Source: Rhodobium orientis
GTDB lineage: Bacteria > Pseudomonadota > Alphaproteobacteria > Rhizobiales > Rhodobiaceae
Length of the DNA stretch: 64,000 nt
NCBI RefSeq assembly: GCF_003258835.1
Contig: NZ_NPEV01000013.1
Location: 1 to 64,000, forward strand
Direction: 5' to 3'
The position numbers were made by a program, and so were the translations under genes. This document shows, piece after piece, positions 32,079-42,186 of the stretch (positions within the stretch are counted from its first letter, which is position 1; the number at the start of each line of letters is the position of its first letter). The notes under the pieces were generated by a model. It saw only the letters and a program-made list of their open reading frames with translations, made no database searches and was not told where the DNA came from.

Positions 32079-33869
32079 ATGCATCCCTATCGAAGCCATC
32101 ACTGTGGCCAATTGCGCCAGTCCGACGTCGGCGCCGCCGTCCGCCTTTCCGGCTGGGTCCATCGCGTGCGCGACCATGGCGGCCTGCTGTTCATCGACCT
32201 GCGCGACCATTACGGCCTGACCCAGGTCGTCGCCGATCCGGATTCGCCGGCCTTTTCGACGGCGGAAAAGGTCCGCTCCGAATGGGTCATCCGCATCGAC
32301 GGCAAGGTCAAGGCGCGCACCGACGAGACCATCAACGAAAAGCTGCCGACCGGCCATGTCGAGGTCTTCGCGAGCGACATCGAAGTACTGTCCGCCTCGC
32401 GCGAGCTGCCGCTGCCGGTCTTTGCCGAGCCGGAATATCCGGAAGACATCCGCCTGCGCTACCGGTTCCTGGACCTGCGCCGGGAAACGCTCCACGCCAA
32501 CATCATGAAGCGCAGCGCGATCATCTCCTCGATCCGCCGGCGCATGGTGGAGGACGGGTTCTTCGAGTTCCAGACGCCGATCCTGACGGCCTCCAGCCCG
32601 GAAGGCGCGCGCGACTTCCTGGTGCCCTCGCGCATCCATCCGGGCAAGTTCTACGCCCTGCCGCAGGCGCCGCAGCAGTTCAAGCAGCTCACCATGGTCG
32701 CCGGCTTCGACCGCTATTTCCAGATCGCGCCGTGCTTTCGCGACGAGGACGCCCGCGCCGACCGCTCGCCGGGCGAGTTCTACCAGCTCGACGTGGAGAT
32801 GAGCTTCGTCACCCAGGACGACGTCTTCAATGCCGTCGAGCCCGTGCTGCGCGGCGTCTTCGAGGAGTTCGCCGACGGCAAGAAGGTGACCCAGAATTTC
32901 CCGCGCATCCCCTATGCGGAGTCCATGCGCAAATACGGCGTCGACAAGCCGGACCTGCGCAACCCCATCGTCATGGAATCGGTGACGGAGCATTTCCGCG
33001 GCTCCGGCTTCAAGATCTTCGCCAAGATGATCGAGGCCGACGAGAAGGTCGAGGTCTGGGCGATCCCGGCGCCGGGCGGCGGCAGCCGCGCCTTCTGCGA
33101 CCGCATGAATTCGTGGGCGCAGGGCGAGGGCCAGCCGGGCCTTGGCTACATCTTCTTCCGCGACGGCGAGGGCGCCGGACCGATCGCCAAGAACATCGGG
33201 CCTGAGCGCACCGAGGCGGTCCGTACCCAGCTCGGCCTGAAGGACGGCGATGCCGTCTTCTTCGTCGCCGGCGTGCCGGCCAAGTTCGCGTCGTTCGCCG
33301 GTGCCGCCCGCCAGAAGGCCGGCTTCGACCTGAAGCTGATCGACGAGGACCGCTTCGAATTCTGCTGGATCGTCGACTTCCCGATGTTCGAGTGGAACGA
33401 GGAGGAGAAGAAGATCGACTTCTCGCACAACCCCTTCTCCATGCCCCAGGGCGGCGAGGAGGTGCTGGACGCGGTGATCGCCGGCACCACCAATGCCGAG
33501 GACGTGCTCGCCTACCAGTACGACATCGTCTGCAACGGCATCGAGCTGTCGTCCGGTGCGATCCGGAACCATCTGCCGGCGATCATGAAGAAGGCGTTCT
33601 CCATTGCCGGCTACGACGAGGCGGTGCTGGAGGAAAAGTTCGGCGGCATGATGCGGGCGCTGGAATACGGCGCCCCGCCGCATGGCGGCATCGCGCCGGG
33701 CATCGACCGCATCGTCATGCTTTTGTGCGGCGAGGAGAACCTGCGCGAAGTCGTCATGTTCCCGATGAACCAGCAGGCCGAGGACCTGATGATGGGCGCA
33801 CCGTCGTCGGTCTCGCCGCGCCAGCTTCGCGAGCTGCACATCCGGCTCAACCTGCCGGACGAGAAATAG
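32079..33869 (+). CDS. aspS: Aspartyl-tRNA synthetase, probably non-discriminating
   Basis: Class II synthetase charging tRNA(Asp). The anticodon-binding OB fold is followed by motif 2 ([10 protein letters not shown]) with the bacterial GAD insertion domain, then motif 3 ([13 protein letters not shown]). Length is 596 residues, typical of bacterial type. In the anticodon domain the sequence [11 protein letters not shown] has His at position 33, where tRNA(Asp)-specific enzymes usually have Leu. In characterised AspRS that His marks non-discriminating enzymes that also charge tRNA(Asn) for later amidation by GatCAB. Confidence 0.95.
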
Positions 33870-33880
33870 CCGAAGAAACG

Positions 33881-33915
33881 AAAACCCGGCGCCGACTGGC
33901 GCCGGGTTTTTGTTG
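33881..33915 (+). terminator. Bidirectional-looking terminator after aspS
   Basis: A 13-bp stem (AAAACCCGGCGCC with GGCGCCGGGTTTT, 33881-33910), a GACT loop, then a further TGTTG. The A and T tracts in the stem allow termination in both directions. It lies between convergent aspS and the secreted-protein gene. Confidence 0.85.
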
Positions 33916-33921
33916 CTTCCC

Positions 33922-35976
33922 CTAGTTGCCCGTCGAAACGCCGACGCCGAGGAGCTTGACCAGCGCTCCCGGGGCCATCGCCGCCATGCCGAGGATCTGG
34001 CTCGCCGGCACCGGCTGGTCCGGCTTTGCGACGACGGTGAGCGTGCGCGGATCGTTGAGGAAGTCGGTCGCGGCCGCAATCACCTCTTCCGAAAACGCCG
34101 GGTTCTGAAGCATCGCAAGCTTCTGGCCCAGTTCGGCGATGATCCTGTCGCGGGCCTCGACCGGGCTGATGCCCTGTTCCTCGGCGAAGTTGGCAAGGGC
34201 GGTCTGCACCATCCGCTCGTTCTGCAATTCGAAGCGGATCGCGCTAACCGAAAGGGTCGCCATCGCCGCCTGGGCTTTTTCGGGGTCCTCGAAGACGAAG
34301 CGCGGCACGCCGCCGATGGTGGCGTCGATGCGCACGCTGGCGATACCGTCCATGTCCAGGATGATCGGCCCGACGATGAGGTCCTTGCTCGCCTCGTCCC
34401 AGCGCAGGCGGAAGTCGCCGTTGCTGCGGATGTGGTCGAGCCCCATGGAGCGCAGCAGCTCCTGCGTTTGCGGCTCGTCGCGGAAGGCGGCAACCGGCAG
34501 CACGAAATTGACGATCTGCTCGCGCCAGTCCGTCGGGATCGGCGCGATATGGTCGCGCATTTCCGTCTTGTAGCGCTCAAGCGACACCGACATGCCGTCG
34601 GGACCGTCCAAGGAAAAGTCCTCGATTCCGGCGGTGCTCAGCATCGGGATCACATCGAGGATGGCGCGGGCCGGCGGGTTGCCCTTGTCGCCGATTGCGA
34701 CCAGGTGCTGGATTGCGGCGGCGCGCGGGAAGACGAGGCCCTCCAGATAGCTCTTCTTCATGGCCATCCGGCCTTGGGCACCGGCGTCCAGTTCTGCCCG
34801 TTCGACGGCGAATTCTTCGAGCCCGTCGGGCGTCAGGCCGCGCAGCGCGATGCGCTCCACGCCCCCCGACACCTGGCCGGGGGCATTGAGGCGGATGTCG
34901 TCGATCGACATGCGGTCGATGCCGATCGAGCCGAGCACCGCAAAGCCGAAGGCCGCCGCTTCCTCCTCGTTCGGCTCCTCGCCGCGCACGGCGCGGTCGA
35001 AAAAGGCGAACGGCGATTCCGCCGGCTGGCGCATCTTGATGCCGTAGAAGGCCTGACGCGAGATGCGGAAGGTCACGTCGTCGCCGACCGTGACGACCGT
35101 GTCGGCGACGGTGGACTCGTCGAGAACGGTCTTCAGGTCCGGATCGGTCTCGCCGAAGAGGTAGTTCTCCGGATCGAGCAGGTCGATCGGCGTCTTGAGG
35201 TTCTGACCACGATAGGTGATTGCGCCGGTCTCGATGCGCATCTCCTTCGGCGGCTCAAGGTCGAAGCCGGGCGTGTCGTGGGGTTGCGCACTGGTGGGCC
35301 TGGGCAGGGTGGTCACGGACACCATGCGTCCGATGCGGGCATAGGCGATCCGGCCGTCCTTCATGCCGGAGCTCTCGATATCCTCGTAGGTCGTCACCTG
35401 CGGAGCCATATCGGGCTGTTGCTGGGTGACCGTCAGCTTGGCGGCGACGGACCGGCCGTATTCGAACCGGCTGACCCAGCGCAGATACGGGAAATAGCTG
35501 GAAACGGGCCGGTTGCTGTCGACCTGCACGCTCGGCATGTAGGGCCAGAAAAGGTCCTCGGCATCGGCGCCGGTCAGCGTACTGGTGGCGTGCGCCAGCT
35601 TGTCGCCGACGCCGAAACGGAAGCTCATCCGGGTGCCGTCGGCATAGTGCCAGGCGTCCATCCTGAACCCGTCCTCGACCTCGCGCAGGTTCCGGATCTC
35701 CACCGACGGCGCCTCGATGTCGATATCGAAGGTCGCTCCGCCCTTGCCGAACGGCAGCGACACCGGCCAGGAAATGACGATGTCCGGAACGGTGACGAGA
35801 CCGCTGCCCGGATCGTAGTCGATGGGCCCGTGATCGGCGGTCTTGGCCCCGGCGATGCGCGCCTCGGAGAAGAAATCCTCGACGATGCCGATCGGATCGG
35901 CTGCGGCGGCAATCGGCCAGGAAAGCGCGGCGACGGCGACAAGGCCGGTCGACAAACGGCGCGCGGTGCGGGTCAT
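33922..35976 (-). CDS. Large secreted protein of unknown function, paralogue A
   Basis: A 684-residue exported protein. The signal peptide ends near A-A-A-D-P. The rest alternates short beta-strand-like segments, reminiscent of repetitive beta proteins (DUF945- or AsmA-like), but I cannot assign a family. No catalytic motif, lipobox or membrane anchor is visible. The C-terminal region of about 150 residues (from I-R-F-E-L-Q-N-E-R) aligns by eye with the C-terminus of the upstream gene at 36109-37275: both have R-F with acidic residues, a helix ending L-Q-N, then E-E/Q-V-A, A-K-P-x-Q-P-V and Q-I-F/L-G. ATG 35976 follows GGGGAGG. Transcribed after paralogue B, with 132 bp between. Confidence 0.8.
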   Translation of the reverse strand: MTRTARRLSTGLVAVAALSWPIAAAADPIGIVEDFFSEARIAGAKTADHGPIDYDPGSGLVTVPDIVISWPVSLPFGKGGATFDIDIEAPSVEIRNLREVEDGFRMDAWHYADGTRMSFRFGVGDKLAHATSTLTGADAEDLFWPYMPSVQVDSNRPVSSYFPYLRWVSRFEYGRSVAAKLTVTQQQPDMAPQVTTYEDIESSGMKDGRIAYARIGRMVSVTTLPRPTSAQPHDTPGFDLEPPKEMRIETGAITYRGQNLKTPIDLLDPENYLFGETDPDLKTVLDESTVADTVVTVGDDVTFRISRQAFYGIKMRQPAESPFAFFDRAVRGEEPNEEEAAAFGFAVLGSIGIDRMSIDDIRLNAPGQVSGGVERIALRGLTPDGLEEFAVERAELDAGAQGRMAMKKSYLEGLVFPRAAAIQHLVAIGDKGNPPARAILDVIPMLSTAGIEDFSLDGPDGMSVSLERYKTEMRDHIAPIPTDWREQIVNFVLPVAAFRDEPQTQELLRSMGLDHIRSNGDFRLRWDEASKDLIVGPIILDMDGIASVRIDATIGGVPRFVFEDPEKAQAAMATLSVSAIRFELQNERMVQTALANFAEEQGISPVEARDRIIAELGQKLAMLQNPAFSEEVIAAATDFLNDPRTLTVVAKPDQPVPASQILGMAAMAPGALVKLLGVGVSTGN

Positions 35977-36059
35977 TGAACAATCCTCCCCAGGAAGAGG
36001 TCAAGGAGGCGCCGGCTCGATCTTCGGGTTGCCGCGTCCTCCGGGTCGTGGCGGCGGGC

Positions 36060-36089
36060 GGAGGCGCCGGGGTCGTGACCGGCGCCTCC
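36060..36089. repeat. Perfect GC-rich hairpin between the secreted paralogues
   Basis: GGAGGCGCCGG at 36060-36070 and CCGGCGCCTCC at 36079-36089 form an 11-bp perfect stem with an 8-base loop. The only T-rich flank lies on the plus-strand side, whereas both neighbours are on the minus strand, so it does not look like an ordinary terminator for them. It could attenuate or stabilise the mRNA between paralogues B and A. Confidence 0.6.
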
Positions 36090-36108
36090 GTCTCTGTTCG
36101 TTTTGGCC

Positions 36109-37275
36109 TTACGGGTTGCTGACCTCAACGGCGAGCACCGACGGCAGCGCCTGCGGCGCCATCATCAGCCCGAAGATCTGCGCAAAGGTGACCGGCTGGG
36201 GCGGCTTTGCCTCGATCAGGATCGAGCCCTGCTGGCGCAGGAAGGTGCCGGCCGCCGAAGCGACCTGTTCCTCGAATTGCTTGTTCTGCAGGAAGCGCAG
36301 CATCATCGGCAGGCCGGCGGCCAGTTGCTCGGCCACCTCGTCGGCGCTGGCGCCGCCCATTTCCTTGCCCTGTGCCGCAAGCGCCCGCTTGGTGACGCTG
36401 TCGTCGTCGAAGCGGATCGCGAGGTTCTGCACCGAGACGGCCTGCAGGGCACCCATCTGCTGCTGGGCGTTGCCGCCGGAATTGAGCTGCGCCAGGACCG
36501 CCGGTGTCAGGCCGCCGAAGCCGCCGGTGATCGTCAGCGTGCCGACATCCGTGCCGGAAACCTTGATCTCCTTGATCGTCGCTTCGCCGGAACCAGGGTC
36601 ATAGGCGCCGGCGGAACTGAACGAGAAGGTGACGGTATCGTAGCCGAAGCGGTCGAAGGCCTTCTTGCCTTCCTCGTCGAGGGCATCCTTGGAAACGACG
36701 ATGTCGCTAACCTTCATGGAGCCGGAGGACGGGACGCCGTCGATCTCCTCGCCGACCTCGACCTCGATCGCCCCGACCGGGATGGTGACGCCGTTCTCGG
36801 TCGTGAACTTGGCATCCGCCAGGAGGACGCGATCGAAGCTCGGGTTCGGTTCTTCGTCACCGGCGGCCTTCACCGCCTCGGCGCTGGGTATGACGGCGCC
36901 TTCGGTAATTCCGTTGGCAATCGTCAGCTTGGAGCCGTCGTCCTTGCTGAGGGCGACGTCGTCCATGGCGATCGACTCGGCCTTGACGCTGCCGTCCTCG
37001 ACGGTCGCGTCCTTGATGACCAGGCTGCCTATGCTCACCTCTTGCTTGCTGCCGGCCTTGTTGCTGGTGACCTTCAGATCGCTGATCTCGGTCTGGCTCT
37101 CGTCGCCGGAAACGCTGCCGGCTTCGATGCTCTTGGCGCCGCCGGCTTCAAGCGACGCGAACAGCGCGTCCGCGACGGGATTGCCGGTGGGCTCGAAGCC
37201 ATAGCTCGCCGGGGCGCCGACCACCAGGGCGACGAAGGCGAGGGCCGCTACGCCCGGTGATTTGAAAAACGTCAT
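36109..37275 (-). CDS. Secreted protein of unknown function, paralogue B
   Basis: A 388-residue exported protein with a signal peptide (F-K-S-P-G-V-A-A-L-A-F-V-A-L-V-V onward, ending S-Y-G-F). The mature part is rich in Gly, Ser, Asp and Val and looks all-beta (K-V-S-D-I-V-V, G-S-L-V-I-K-D-A-T-V), with a helical C-terminal module shared with paralogue A (N-L-A-I-R-F-D-D-D-S, F-L-Q-N-K-Q-F-E-E-Q-V-A, A-K-P-P-Q-P-V-T-F-A-Q-I-F-G). Start ATG 37275 has GGAGA seven bases upstream. It is the first gene of a two-gene unit, divergent from speD. Function unknown. Confidence 0.8.
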   Translation of the reverse strand: MTFFKSPGVAALAFVALVVGAPASYGFEPTGNPVADALFASLEAGGAKSIEAGSVSGDESQTEISDLKVTSNKAGSKQEVSIGSLVIKDATVEDGSVKAESIAMDDVALSKDDGSKLTIANGITEGAVIPSAEAVKAAGDEEPNPSFDRVLLADAKFTTENGVTIPVGAIEVEVGEEIDGVPSSGSMKVSDIVVSKDALDEEGKKAFDRFGYDTVTFSFSSAGAYDPGSGEATIKEIKVSGTDVGTLTITGGFGGLTPAVLAQLNSGGNAQQQMGALQAVSVQNLAIRFDDDSVTKRALAAQGKEMGGASADEVAEQLAAGLPMMLRFLQNKQFEEQVASAAGTFLRQQGSILIEAKPPQPVTFAQIFGLMMAPQALPSVLAVEVSNP

Positions 37276-37494
37276 GTGGTTTCTCCGATAAAGGCGACCC
37301 CCGTGCCCCTTTTCCGGTCGCGCGCGATCTCCAAACGGTGCGTCGTCGGCCGGCGGCGGACAGTGTGCGTGACCGGGCCGGGCACGGCAACCCGTTCCGC
37401 CCAACTTCGTAAGTATTTTTCTTTAGAAGGCTTCACGGCTTTGCGAGCGGCGAAAAATACTTGACGAATCCGCACGTTTTGCAGGGTTCACATG

Positions 37495-37523
37495 TTGAAT
37501 GTGACGGCCAATCAGCCTATATC
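37495..37523 (+). promoter_or_regulatory. Candidate promoter for speD-speE
   Basis: TTGAAT (37495-37500) and TATATC (37518-37523) with an exact 17-bp spacer, about 55 bp before the speD ATG. Both hexamers match consensus at four of six positions. The intervening leader ends in AGGAGGA, a near-perfect ribosome site. Confidence 0.45.
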
Positions 37524-37578
37524 CGCGGCTCTCCGGAAAACATCCCGGGTACATCTACTGGCAGGTCAGGAGGACGCG

Positions 37579-38085
37579 ATGTCAAACGCCGCCCTCTTCC
37601 CGCTGGGGATGGACTTGGACGCTCCAAGCATCGCCCAAAAGGAAGATCACGACACCCACCCCAAAGGCGTTGCGCCCGAGGAGCAATTCAATCCGCACGG
37701 GCAAGGGCTCGACCGGAAAGACCACTTCATCGAGAAGAACGGCATTCGCTGCGCCGGCTCGCACCTGATCATCGACGTTCACGGTGCCGAGCACCTCGAC
37801 GATTGCGGGCATATCGAAAAGACCCTGGTCGAGTGCGTCGAGGCCGCCGGCGCGACGCTGCTGCACATCCATCTGCATCGCTTCGAGCCGAACGGCGTCT
37901 CCGGCGTTGCCGTCCTCGCCGAAAGCCATATCTCGGTCCATTCCTGGCCGGAGAATGGCTATGCGGCGTTCGACGTCTTCATGTGCGGCGATGCCATGCC
38001 GGAGCGCTGCGTGGAGGTCATCCGGTCCGCCTTCAAGCCGGACCGTATCGTCGTCAGCGAAATCCTGAGGGGGCGGGGGGCTTGA
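37579..38085 (+). CDS. speD: S-adenosylmethionine decarboxylase proenzyme
   Basis: Makes decarboxylated SAM, the aminopropyl donor for spermidine. It is made as a proenzyme that cuts itself at Glu115-Ser116 in L-A-E-S-H-I-S-V-H-S-W-P-E, producing a pyruvoyl group on the Ser. The later F-M-C-G carries the conserved catalytic Cys. At 168 residues it is longer than typical class 1B enzymes (120-130) because of an N-terminal extension of about 45 polar, His/Asp/Gln-rich residues. ATG 37579 follows AGGAGGA. Coupled to speE by a TTGA overlap. Confidence 0.94.
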   Translation: MSNAALFPLGMDLDAPSIAQKEDHDTHPKGVAPEEQFNPHGQGLDRKDHFIEKNGIRCAGSHLIIDVHGAEHLDDCGHIEKTLVECVEAAGATLLHIHLHRFEPNGVSGVAVLAESHISVHSWPENGYAAFDVFMCGDAMPERCVEVIRSAFKPDRIVVSEILRGRGA

Positions 38086-38957
38086 CCGGGCGGCGCTGGT
38101 TTTCCGAAACGCTGCACAACGGCCTCCGGTTCTCGCTCGAAGCGTCCGACGTCCTCTACGAGGAAAAGACCGAGCACCAGCACCTGGCGCTGATCGAGAA
38201 CGCCGCCTACGGCCGCGTGTTGATGCTCGACGAGGTGGTGCAGGTCACCGCCCGCGACGAGTTCGTCTACCACGAGATGATGGCCCACGTGCCGATCCTC
38301 GCCCATGGCGCGGCGCGCGAGGTCCTGATCGTCGGCGGCGGCGACTGCGGCATGGCCGAGGAGGCGTTGAAGCACAAGGGCGTGGAGCGGCTCACCCAGG
38401 TCGAGATCGACGCCTCGGTGGTGGAGTTCTCGCGCGAGCATTTTTCAAGCTTCAACGCGCCCGTCTTCGACGATCCGCGCTTTGACCTGGTGATCGCCGA
38501 CGGCATGAAGTTCGTTGCCGAGACCGACCGGCTCTTCGATGCCATCCTGATCGACTCCACCGACCCGATCGGGCCGGGCGAGGTGCTTTTCAGTGCCGAA
38601 TTCTATGCCGGCTGCAAGCGCTGCCTGAAGCCGGGCGGCGTGCTCGTCACCCAGAACGGCGTGCCGTTCCTGCAGGGCGGCGAACTGGTCTCCAGCATCG
38701 GGCATTTCTCAAAGCTCTTTGCCGATGCCAGCGCCTATGTGGTGGCGGTGCCGACCTATATCGGCGGCCACATGGCGCTCGGCTGGGCGAGCGACGACAA
38801 GGCATTGCGGACCGTTCCGCTGGAGACCCTCCAGGAGCGCTTCCAGGCTGCCGCGATCGAGACCCGTTACTATACGCCGGAGGTGCACCGGGCGGCCTTC
38901 GCCCTGCCGCGCTATATCGGCGACCTCGTTGAAAAGGGCCGCAGCGGGAACGCCTGA
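38082..38957 (+). CDS. speE: Spermidine synthase (polyamine aminopropyltransferase)
   Basis: Transfers the aminopropyl group from decarboxylated SAM to putrescine. Motifs present are the N-terminal W-F-S-E-T-L-H-N-G-L-R, G-R-V-L-M-L-D-E-V-V-Q, the cofactor site I-V-G-G-G-D-C-G, and the catalytic-loop D-S-T-D-P-I-G-P-G. There is no ATG; TTG 38082 overlaps the speD stop and has a G-rich upstream run. Length is 291 residues. The speD-speE pair gives a two-step spermidine module. Confidence 0.94.
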   Translation: MTGRRWFSETLHNGLRFSLEASDVLYEEKTEHQHLALIENAAYGRVLMLDEVVQVTARDEFVYHEMMAHVPILAHGAAREVLIVGGGDCGMAEEALKHKGVERLTQVEIDASVVEFSREHFSSFNAPVFDDPRFDLVIADGMKFVAETDRLFDAILIDSTDPIGPGEVLFSAEFYAGCKRCLKPGGVLVTQNGVPFLQGGELVSSIGHFSKLFADASAYVVAVPTYIGGHMALGWASDDKALRTVPLETLQERFQAAAIETRYYTPEVHRAAFALPRYIGDLVEKGRSGNA

Positions 38958-40557: not shown

Positions 40558-42186
40558 GTGCACGCGGACAGTGTTCCCTTGTTAGCCCGCAGCCTCCCTT
40601 TCCTCCGTGCGTTCCTGACGGCGCTGCTGCTGGCGATCGGGCCGTTCCTGCTCGCCCGCTTCATCCTGCAGAGCCACGCCGAGCGCCGCGGCATGGAGGA
40701 GCTGCACGGCGCGGCCCTGCGCTATGTGCACCGGGCCGACCGGGTCATCTCCGAGGCGACGCAGGCGCTCCACCTGCTGCACGACAGGAAGCAGACCGAC
40801 TGTTCCCCGCAATCCCGGGAAGGATTCATCGAGGTTGCCCGCGGTTCCGGCTTCATCGATTCGGTTGGTATGGTCGACGAGAAGGGCCTTGCCATGTGCC
40901 TGGAGCCGAAAGGGCGCCTGGCGGCGGCGACGTTGCTGCCGCCCTACCGCAAGTCGGCCTCGTCGATTGCCATGGGCATTGTCGGCGACGCCAAGGGCGA
41001 GAACGCCGCCGTCATCGGCTGGGCGCTGAAGGACGGGCGCCGGCTGGTCGCCCGGCTCGCTCCCCAGGTCCTCGACATCGACCCCGGGCCGGAGAACCTT
41101 CGCGACCATATGCACGCGGTGGTTCGGCTGAAGGACGGGACGATCTGGCTGGAGGAGGGCAAGTCGCTGCGCGACGAGGGCGGCGACTGGCTGGAAGCGA
41201 CCCGGACCTCCCGCCACTTTCCCGTCAGCGTCAGTCTCTCGGCGCCCTGGAGCGCGGCCTGGGAGCCGATCCAGCCGCTCAACGTTCTGGTCACCGCCTG
41301 TTCCATCGCCTTCGGCCTCATCATCATGATCGTGTCACTGCGCATGGCGATGGTCGCCTCCCGCAACGACTCGAGCGAATTCCTGGAGGCGATCGTCAAG
41401 CAGGAGTTCGTGCCCTACTACCAGCCCGTCGTCGACATCGAGACCGGGCACCTGCGCGGCTGCGAGGTGCTGGCGCGCTGGGCCAAGCCCGACGGCACCA
41501 TCGGCTATCCGGGTTCGTTCATGCCGTTCGCCGAGACCAGCGGCCATATCATCGAGATCACCCGCCAGCTCATGCGCAAGACCCGGGACGAGCTGGGGCC
41601 GCTTTACGAGAGCCGCCCGGAACTGAAGGTCTCCATCAACCTGTCGGCCATCCACTTCAAGGACAGGCGGACCATCGAGGATATCGAGGAAATCTTCGGC
41701 GACGGCCCGATCAGCTATCGCCAGCTCGTCTTCGAGGTCACCGAGCGCCAGCCGCTGGCCGACATGGACAAGGCCCGCAAGATCATCGCCGAGATGCACG
41801 CCCTCGGCCTGCGCATCGCGCTCGACGACGTCGGCACCGGCCACAGCGGGCTCGCCTACCTGCAGATGCTCGGCGTCGATATCGTCAAGATCGACAAGAT
41901 GTTCATCGACACGCTGCTGACCGACGAAAATGCGGACGCCATCGTCGACAAGCTCGTCCAGCTCGCCGCCAACCTGCACATGGGCATTATTGCCGAGGGC
42001 GTCGAGCACGCCGAGCAGGTCGACCGCCTGCGCGAGCTCGGCGTCACGGCCGCGCAAGGGTTTCTGTTCGCCCCGGCGCTTCCCGGCAAGGTCTATATCG
42101 ATCTCGCCAAGGCGATGGCGCCGCCGCCGAAACGTCTCGCGTCCGATGATGAAGCCGAGGTGCCGGGGCTCGAGGCGAGCGCCTGA
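40558..42186 (+). CDS. CSS-motif / EAL domain c-di-GMP phosphodiesterase
   Basis: A membrane protein of about 542 residues. An N-terminal helix (L-T-A-L-L-L-A-I-G-P-F-L-L-A) and a second near residue 255 bracket a periplasmic domain with two cysteines, Cys82 in D-C-S-P and Cys114, matching the redox-sensitive CSS-motif domain. The EAL domain follows: E303-V-L (an E-x-L variant), N-L-S-A-I-H-F, D-D-V-G-T-G, K-I-D-K-M-F, E-G-V-E, Q-G-F-L-F, so catalytic residues look complete. In E. coli relatives, reduction of the disulphide activates cleavage of c-di-GMP. The start is uncertain: GTG 40558 and TTG 40576 both lack a good ribosome site. Confidence 0.88.
   Translation: MHADSVPLLARSLPFLRAFLTALLLAIGPFLLARFILQSHAERRGMEELHGAALRYVHRADRVISEATQALHLLHDRKQTDCSPQSREGFIEVARGSGFIDSVGMVDEKGLAMCLEPKGRLAAATLLPPYRKSASSIAMGIVGDAKGENAAVIGWALKDGRRLVARLAPQVLDIDPGPENLRDHMHAVVRLKDGTIWLEEGKSLRDEGGDWLEATRTSRHFPVSVSLSAPWSAAWEPIQPLNVLVTACSIAFGLIIMIVSLRMAMVASRNDSSEFLEAIVKQEFVPYYQPVVDIETGHLRGCEVLARWAKPDGTIGYPGSFMPFAETSGHIIEITRQLMRKTRDELGPLYESRPELKVSINLSAIHFKDRRTIEDIEEIFGDGPISYRQLVFEVTERQPLADMDKARKIIAEMHALGLRIALDDVGTGHSGLAYLQMLGVDIVKIDKMFIDTLLTDENADAIVDKLVQLAANLHMGIIAEGVEHAEQVDRLRELGVTAAQGFLFAPALPGKVYIDLAKAMAPPPKRLASDDEAEVPGLEASA

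Follow-up and report, generated by a model that had tools for sequence, protein, structure and literature searches.

How phospholipids and other lipids pass across the periplasm is an open question, for which the known candidates include anchored AsmA-superfamily bridges, MCE systems and a few small carriers. JlpA, the Lpt proteins and the chorein/RBG proteins all have an open beta groove or half barrel. Parts of two papers describe hydrophobic beta-grooves in AsmA proteins (PMC12977461, PMC12436622), and a section of a third gives the periplasm a width of 20 nm and counts DUF4403 and JHBP among the TULIP families (PMC6791001). Here we compare with these systems a pair of adjacent genes from Rhodobium orientis, found at 33922-37275 in a 64,000-nucleotide stretch of contig NZ_NPEV01000013.1 (assembly GCF_003258835.1), the whole of which we call the window. 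The genes encode exported paralogues, one short and one long. They belong to an alphaproteobacterial family that is widespread but uncurated, is predicted to fold as a groove and repeatedly pairs a short with a long form; we infer its function from the fold. We propose, at a probability of roughly 0.55, that its members are soluble periplasmic groove proteins, made in a short and a long version, that handle a lipid or another hydrophobic component of the envelope. An exported groove family of this kind, with paired lengths at one conserved locus, would offer concrete genes and proteins for work on lipid cargo.

The paired paralogues and their distribution

Both open reading frames (ORFs) lie on the minus strand with the coordinates and lengths given in an earlier preliminary description, at 33922-35976 (684 amino acids, aa) and 36109-37275 (388 aa from ATG). 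Their parts are as follows, with the evidence for each in brackets (pLDDT, predicted local distance difference test; HMM, hidden Markov model).

36109..37275, minus strand: short paralogue, 388 aa, with a signal peptide, one predicted beta-groove and a helical C-terminal cap (ORF, alignment, AlphaFold2 model)
37198..37275, minus strand: signal peptide of the short paralogue, residues 1-26, probably cleaved before FEPTGN (sequence; A-x-A sites of the family; pLDDT below 50 in residues 1-25)
36112..36828, minus strand: approximate residues 150-388 of the short paralogue, its C-terminal module and most widely recurring part (profile searches, hhalign)
33922..35976, minus strand: long paralogue, 684 aa, with a signal peptide, an N-cap, an extended predicted beta-groove and a helical C-terminal cap (ORF, alignment, AlphaFold2 model)
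35899..35976, minus strand: signal peptide of the long paralogue, residues 1-26, cleavage presumed (sequence; A-x-A sites of the family; pLDDT below 50 in residues 1-25)
35419..35898, minus strand: residues 27-186 of the long paralogue, an N-terminal cap with homology to the short N-terminus (hhalign, HMM)
33925..34641, minus strand: approximate residues 446-684 of the long paralogue, its C-terminal module (BLASTP, hhalign; JlpA match on model residues 379-682)

The short and long products are exported paralogues. Direct BLASTP aligned them at 24% identity over 304 columns (E 1e-16). A profile comparison, set beforehand as a check on the C-termini, aligned 27 short with 27 long proteins over 317 columns (hhalign probability 100, E 3e-53), and a second, named set of 23 short and 16 long rows again gave 317 columns (E 9e-45). 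The first alignments comprised 27 of 30 loci each, leaving out near-duplicates (L011, L020 and L025 for the short form; L046 and L051 for the long form) and the broken L038; the named sets comprised the window protein plus 22 of 23 short forms, or plus 15 of 16 long forms (L072 out). Within its own genome, each protein retrieves only itself and its partner. The similarity of the C-termini noted in the preliminary description therefore stands, although the 304 and 317 aligned columns extend beyond the module of 120-150 residues it had proposed. The motifs it listed there are present, but V-A-x-A-A, which it took for a strand, lies in a predicted helix at residues 332-347 of the short AlphaFold2 model.

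Homology extends to the N-termini. When the long profile was compared with the short set, its N-terminal half matched the initial ~130 residues of the mature short proteins (hhalign 96.8, E 2.3e-10, 129 columns; reversed control 3.8). At i-E <= 1e-3, an HMM of long residues 27-150 picked up 31 of the 74 short proteins, whereas none of the 74 reversed sequences matched. The long form thus approximates a short form with ~300 extra beta-sheet residues between N-cap and C-module, and this additional stretch is the main difference between the two. Duplication had been proposed earlier together with divergence of the N-terminal part; the paralogy holds, but with related caps a simple divergence of the N-terminus does not describe the pair. 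Within the long form, the resemblance between N-half and C-half (hhalign probability 66.7, 114 columns; reversed 8.3) is suggestive only. We dropped a claim of sequence repeats in the extra groove because the profile of long residues 346-435, which matched 64 of 169 family ORFs, also matched 39 of 169 reversed ones.

The pair is widespread. Among 199 genomes of the order, searched at E 0.001, the short query matches 83 and the long query 95. Among the matches listed there are 97 carrier genomes besides the own genome, of which 44 hold both forms, 20 the short form only and 33 the long form only; in 35 of the 44 the two lie at most 3 kb apart on one strand, and in 36 of 40 such pairs the short gene precedes the long one. 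This count covers listed places (G042 and G153 match without one), excludes the own genome and the second pieces of G045 and G085, and separates short from long by open frame at 580 aa, with five forced cases of fused frames. Co-occurrence in related genomes, which the preliminary description had anticipated, is thus borne out by these 44 genomes. In a class-wide sample of 289 genomes, 43 had a match, and 39 of the 43 belong to other orders; most of the listed matched stretches were confined to the final 340 of the 686 profile positions, and family ORFs outside the order were about 260-940 aa long. Relatives of the short form also occur on plasmids, where tblastn found them in 84 records, mostly from Rhizobium. 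Among the 20 plasmid matches listed, 17 had "hypothetical protein" or nothing under the match and the remaining records were without annotation; in three plasmid regions that we inspected, the family gene was annotated "hypothetical protein".

In species genomes we identified 23 named loci, including those of Stappia, Roseibium, Amorphus, Pseudoxanthobacter, Siculibacillus, Pinisolibacter, Pseudovibrio and several metagenome-assembled genomes. Across these loci the order EAL - pair - aspS - rnd recurs, with EAL in 21, the long form in 16, aspS in 18 and rnd in 12, some contigs ending early. Of the 16 pairs, 13 have the short gene in front and three (L080, L083, L084) the long one.

In a tree of the C-terminal module (FastTree, with several long branches) the two forms are largely separate, with 5 label changes; adding a third label, "other", gave 15 changes against 62 in shuffles. 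The tree suggests that the duplication predates most sampled lineages, although the clustering is partly circular because the labels were mostly set by the higher-scoring profile. Ratios of nonsynonymous to synonymous substitution (dN/dS) against the nearest relative, G060 of the same genus, were 0.41 (short gene) and 0.31 (long gene), values in keeping with purifying selection.

Some genomes depart from the simple pair. Five from one family (f40: G040, G080, G114, G144 and G171, loci L136, L142, L144, L147 and L148) carry a tandem short pair, an adjacent long gene and a second long gene elsewhere. Outside the order, family genes are also found in tandem, with 461 + 687 aa at L159 (G224) and 641 + 632 aa at L173 (G407), so that pairing extends beyond the short/long arrangement. 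At L038 (G094), a long-form gene contains one in-frame TAA, with stop-free matches in two genomes of the same genus (G006, G057); it is likely a pseudogene or an assembly error.

Export signals, predicted fold and proposed function

Both window proteins begin with a signal-peptide-like segment, in agreement with the preliminary description. Across the family, a hydrophobic N-terminal segment was found in 147 of 168 ORFs and an A-x-A site after it in 130 of the 147, by a home-made pattern rule (not SignalP) applied to a set that includes ORFs cut by locus ends or begun too early. No lipobox was found in the two window proteins, and the 168 family ORFs gave three loose matches. By this pattern the signals belong to the type cut by signal peptidase I, which leads us to expect soluble periplasmic proteins after processing.

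AlphaFold2 models were built from alignments of the window proteins with their named relatives. The short model had a pLDDT of 88.2 and a predicted template-modelling score (pTM) of 0.81, and the long model 86.4 and 0.80; pLDDT below 50 was confined to the signal peptides and one loop of the long form (229-240). In each model a helix at the N-terminus is followed by a long antiparallel meander, and the helical cap at the C-terminus closes in a short strand. In a Foldseek search of the PDB with the short model, the sole matches at E < 0.001 were two chains of JlpA (3uau), at 8.8e-5 and 5.8e-4, both with probability 1.00. VIA-align superposed the short model on JlpA with Z 11.6 and a root-mean-square deviation (rmsd) of 5.3 over 252 residues at ~10% identity. 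The C-terminal half of the long model also matched JlpA, at rank 7 in Foldseek (E 3.0e-3, probability 1.00) and with Z 8.2 in VIA (rmsd 6.3, 246 residues, model 379-682). After JlpA, the VIA rows of the short model were porin OprO (10.1), apolipoprotein B (9.8) and further barrels, with LptC and LptA among the lower rows (Z 6.1 to 7.1); apolipoprotein B tops the rows of the long model (Z 12.8, rmsd 12.4). OrfX (rank 17), LBP (rank 22) and P47 (rank 25), which we take to be TULIP-related, appeared in the PDB list of the short model at probabilities of 0.02-0.04, and none of the 50 matches listed there was a TamB or VPS13 chain; we draw no inference from either observation.

In the viral library BFVD, the short model matched mimivirus R713c first (E 4.8e-4, probability 1.00), a mimivirus "Chorein N-terminal domain-containing protein" second (E 1.5e-3, probability 0.99) and a tupanvirus chorein protein at E 2.2e-2 (probability 0.80), with TM-scores of 0.20-0.24 and rmsd of at least 10. 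Chorein-domain proteins of giant viruses are thus among the closest viral structural matches of a bacterial exported protein.

The strands of the models show a summed alternation of polar and apolar residues beyond chance: with family averages, 1 in 1000 shuffles was as high for the short form and 0 in 1000 for the long form. This fits a groove that needs one apolar face.

The analysis shows homology, pattern-based export signals, a predicted fold, and conservation of pairing and synteny; an apolar groove, a lipid cargo, a direction of transport and contact between the two proteins are inferences that go beyond this. In the proposed mechanism, the N-terminal helix and first strands, the run of long antiparallel strands and the helical cap at the C-terminus would form an open, curved beta-sheet groove, with the cap shutting one end. 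This groove may bind an envelope lipid by its acyl chains, or another hydrophobic component of the envelope, and carry it or keep it in the periplasm. The short form would be one groove unit and the long form ~300 residues more, so that two groove lengths would be made together from one locus. In a beta groove each strand takes up ~0.47 nm. The estimated length would then be some 5-6 nm for the short form and ~10 nm for the long form (some 20 strands). A groove of this size would be too short to span the periplasm alone, which makes a shuttle or relay likelier than a bridge. We consider a more specific version unlikely, namely that in many Hyphomicrobiales a stably encoded pair of soluble, mobile grooves, one short and one long, hands lipid from one to the other in the periplasm, apart from the membrane-anchored AsmA-type bridges, for which this genome also has genes.

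Several observations weigh against a lipid-handling groove. Superposed on JlpA, the short model reaches TM-scores of just 0.35-0.44, and in VIA the porin and BamA barrels come not far behind JlpA (Z 9 to 10.1 against 11.6). For the long model, six chains outrank JlpA in Foldseek, with probabilities of 0.15-0.57, and many barrels score above it in VIA. By VIA's own note, Z below 8 may reflect a mere common arrangement, which applies to the Lpt rows. In the family averages, only 3 of 11 short and 5 of 24 long strands stand out singly at 0.05 for alternation, and in the single window sequences alternation is 1.23 for the short form against 1.45 when shuffled (long form, 1.92 against 1.47). Any sheet with one buried face would give the same summed alternation. 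Among the scanned neighbours, none could be recognised as a known gene of lipid transport, and clustering of neighbours outside the order, a rough look that included spurious ORFs and took some family genes as neighbours, gave no clear conserved partner.

The barrel rows in these lists also raise the question of whether the proteins could be outer-membrane beta-barrels. Many porins and BamA appear in VIA, and LptDE rows reach a Foldseek probability of 0.57 with the long model, but the barrel rows of the short model stay at 0.02-0.15 and the C-terminal region is largely helical in both models. The usual C-terminal signal of outer-membrane barrels is a terminal F, W or Y, which was found in 0 of 59 intact products listed (L038, with its internal stop, not counted). 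We regard a barrel as very unlikely.

The match to JlpA itself can be read differently, because the part of PMC7857515 that lists this protein tabulates it as an adhesin, under cell adhesion. The top solved match of the short model would then point to structural or adhesive exported proteins with a JlpA-like role and no cargo. The near-absence of lipoboxes described above argues against this. So does the occurrence of the genes in a conserved chromosomal neighbourhood in carriers such as Stappia, Roseibium and Amorphus, which are free-living. An adhesin role seems improbable to us, though less so than a barrel.

Possible links to curated families

The two window proteins had nothing over the cut-off in Pfam and nothing in NCBIfam, and the PDB sequences gave no convincing match to either protein or either alignment (best E 0.033), in line with the preliminary description, which recognised no named family. 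JlpA was not found by sequence, with no chain at E <= 10 for either protein or either alignment. Across the two sets of 27 members, the lowest Pfam E-values were 2.7e-4 (DUF945, short members) and 6.4e-4 (JHBP, long members), and NCBIfam gave a single chance-like match, of one long member to an acyl carrier protein (0.0084). Listings from our searches of open-licence literature, made without a family name to search by, contained no paper on this family, which does not prove that none exists.

Below the cut-off, weak sequence links point to DUF945 (YdgA/YihF) and to TULIP families. DUF945 (PF06097) is the commonest sub-threshold Pfam match of the short forms, in 3 of 23 named short forms (best 2e-4) and 2 of 27 short members. 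At L019 the match is colinear, with residues 104-270 on profile positions 150-310 (E 2.7e-4). The 27-row short alignment matched the DUF945 profile with an hhalign probability of 89.7 over 48 columns, further runs gave 87.5 over 43 columns and 52.4 over 204 columns, and an alignment of 65 rows gave 52.9, compared with 7.8 and 10.0 for reversed controls (the DUF945 alignment used 26 of 32 sequences, and the comparison that gave 87.5 and 52.4 used 31 of 32). Outside the order, a 687-aa protein at L159 in G224 combines a sub-threshold DUF945 N-terminus (22.1 bits) with the C-terminal module of the family.

The proteins could therefore be alphaproteobacterial DUF945 proteins of the YdgA/YihF type, with an envelope role that is not necessarily related to lipids. 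However, no short member reaches the DUF945 cut-off: L019 scores 20.6 bits against a curated cut-off of 26.8, the best member (2e-4) must lie near that, and the best score in the own genome, 10.5 bits, lies elsewhere. The higher-scoring profile alignments span just 42-48 columns, and the long form is unmatched (hhalign probability 4.8 and 2.2). On balance, we consider DUF945 membership unlikely. A separate search of PDB sequences with the DUF945 profile gave no JlpA (best E 0.1). The TULIP matches were also weak, with DUF4403 in 2 of 23 (best 0.013) and JHBP in the 1 of 27 long forms noted above.

A second unlikely reading, on a par with DUF945 membership, is that the proteins are true members of the AsmA/RBG bridges, with the long protein forming an intermembrane bridge, or part of one, from an uncleaved N-terminal inner-membrane anchor. 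The viral chorein matches of the short model suggest this, as does the variable length outside the order (ORFs of 261-936 aa). The short profile also aligned with the AsmA N-terminus at a probability of 29.3 (reversed 1.5), the aligned part including the hydrophobic N-terminal segment of both. Against this, the long set and its parts gave less than 2, and no Pfam match to AsmA, TamB or chorein was found at E <= 1 in the 27 short and 27 long members; AsmA membership thus has no support from sequence (the AsmA profile was made from 20 of 30 AsmA loci, several of them fragments). The A-x-A sites of the pattern scan favour a cleavable signal, and a long groove of ~10 nm would reach half of the 20-nm periplasm. 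AsmA-family genes lie elsewhere in the genome, with four matches on contigs C163 and C192, and the pair is thus not its sole candidate groove system. A soluble groove protein remains our preferred reading.

The surrounding locus and comparison with known systems

The pair sits between plus-strand genes, aspS on one side and speD/speE on the other, with the following elements in and beside it.

32079..33869, plus strand: aspS, a syntenic neighbour with a homologue in 18 of 23 named loci (named from sequence features)
36059..36090, minus strand: perfect 12-bp hairpin between the two genes, arms 36059-36070 and 36079-36090 with an 8-nt loop (arms 100% complementary)
33881..33910, minus strand: terminator-like hairpin with a T-rich tail, after the long gene and before the convergent aspS (terminator scan)

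The neighbours AspRS and SpeE were named from sequence features; RNase D (a 3'-5' exonuclease with HRDC), an MFS transporter, SpeD, phosphofructokinase and an EAL protein were named via Pfam. The speD and speE-like genes, at 37492-38957 in the window, are divergent from the short gene. At 40558-42186 lies a gene for an EAL-domain protein with a CSS-motif domain, whose homologue is near the pair in 21 of 23 named loci, possibly through synteny alone. Opposite the long gene, at 33910-35979 on the plus strand, is an antisense ORF of 689 aa.

The hairpin between the genes had been proposed to set their ratio. Its 12-nt arms are exact, but a regulatory role is not convincing. No T-run follows on the transcribed strand, the terminator scan lists the hairpin on the opposite strand only, and its folding is only slightly better than that of shuffled sequences, 7 of 200 of which did equally well (z -1.9). 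Alignment with two relatives showed part of the stem preserved in G060 and nothing equivalent in G012. A terminator or attenuator at this position, which we considered, has no support on the gene strand. The terminator scan found 5 sites in the region, compared with a mean of 3.2 in shuffles. Rfam gave nothing at the gathering threshold, and a simple scan of 33800-37560 found no sigma-70-like promoter.

Compared with described systems, the family could connect DUF945, JlpA and chorein-like folds, which are now filed separately. The bacterial TULIP proteins (DUF4403, YceB and DUF2993, as covered in part of PMC6791001) are elongated beta lipid-binding proteins of the envelope, as the window family is proposed to be; its DUF4403 and JHBP matches, however, are weak and limited to few members. 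With the AsmA-superfamily/RBG proteins (TamB, YhdP and YdbH; VPS13) it would, by its predicted models, share a groove-like beta meander and an N-terminal cap, and it resembles them in its variable length and the viral chorein matches, whereas it lacks a match to their sequence families, is estimated to be too short for the periplasm and has a signal that looks cleavable. DUF945 proteins such as E. coli YdgA and YihF resemble the short form in length and in their hydrophobic N-terminus, in addition to the sub-threshold matches, but those matches stay below the cut-off over short alignments and leave the long form unmatched. JlpA differs from the window proteins in being a surface lipoprotein, in contrast to their signals of the signal-peptidase-I kind, and shares ~10% identity in the structural alignment with no match by sequence. 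In predicted fold, however, it is the top match of the short model by both Foldseek and VIA, and the likeness extends to the C-terminal half of the long form.

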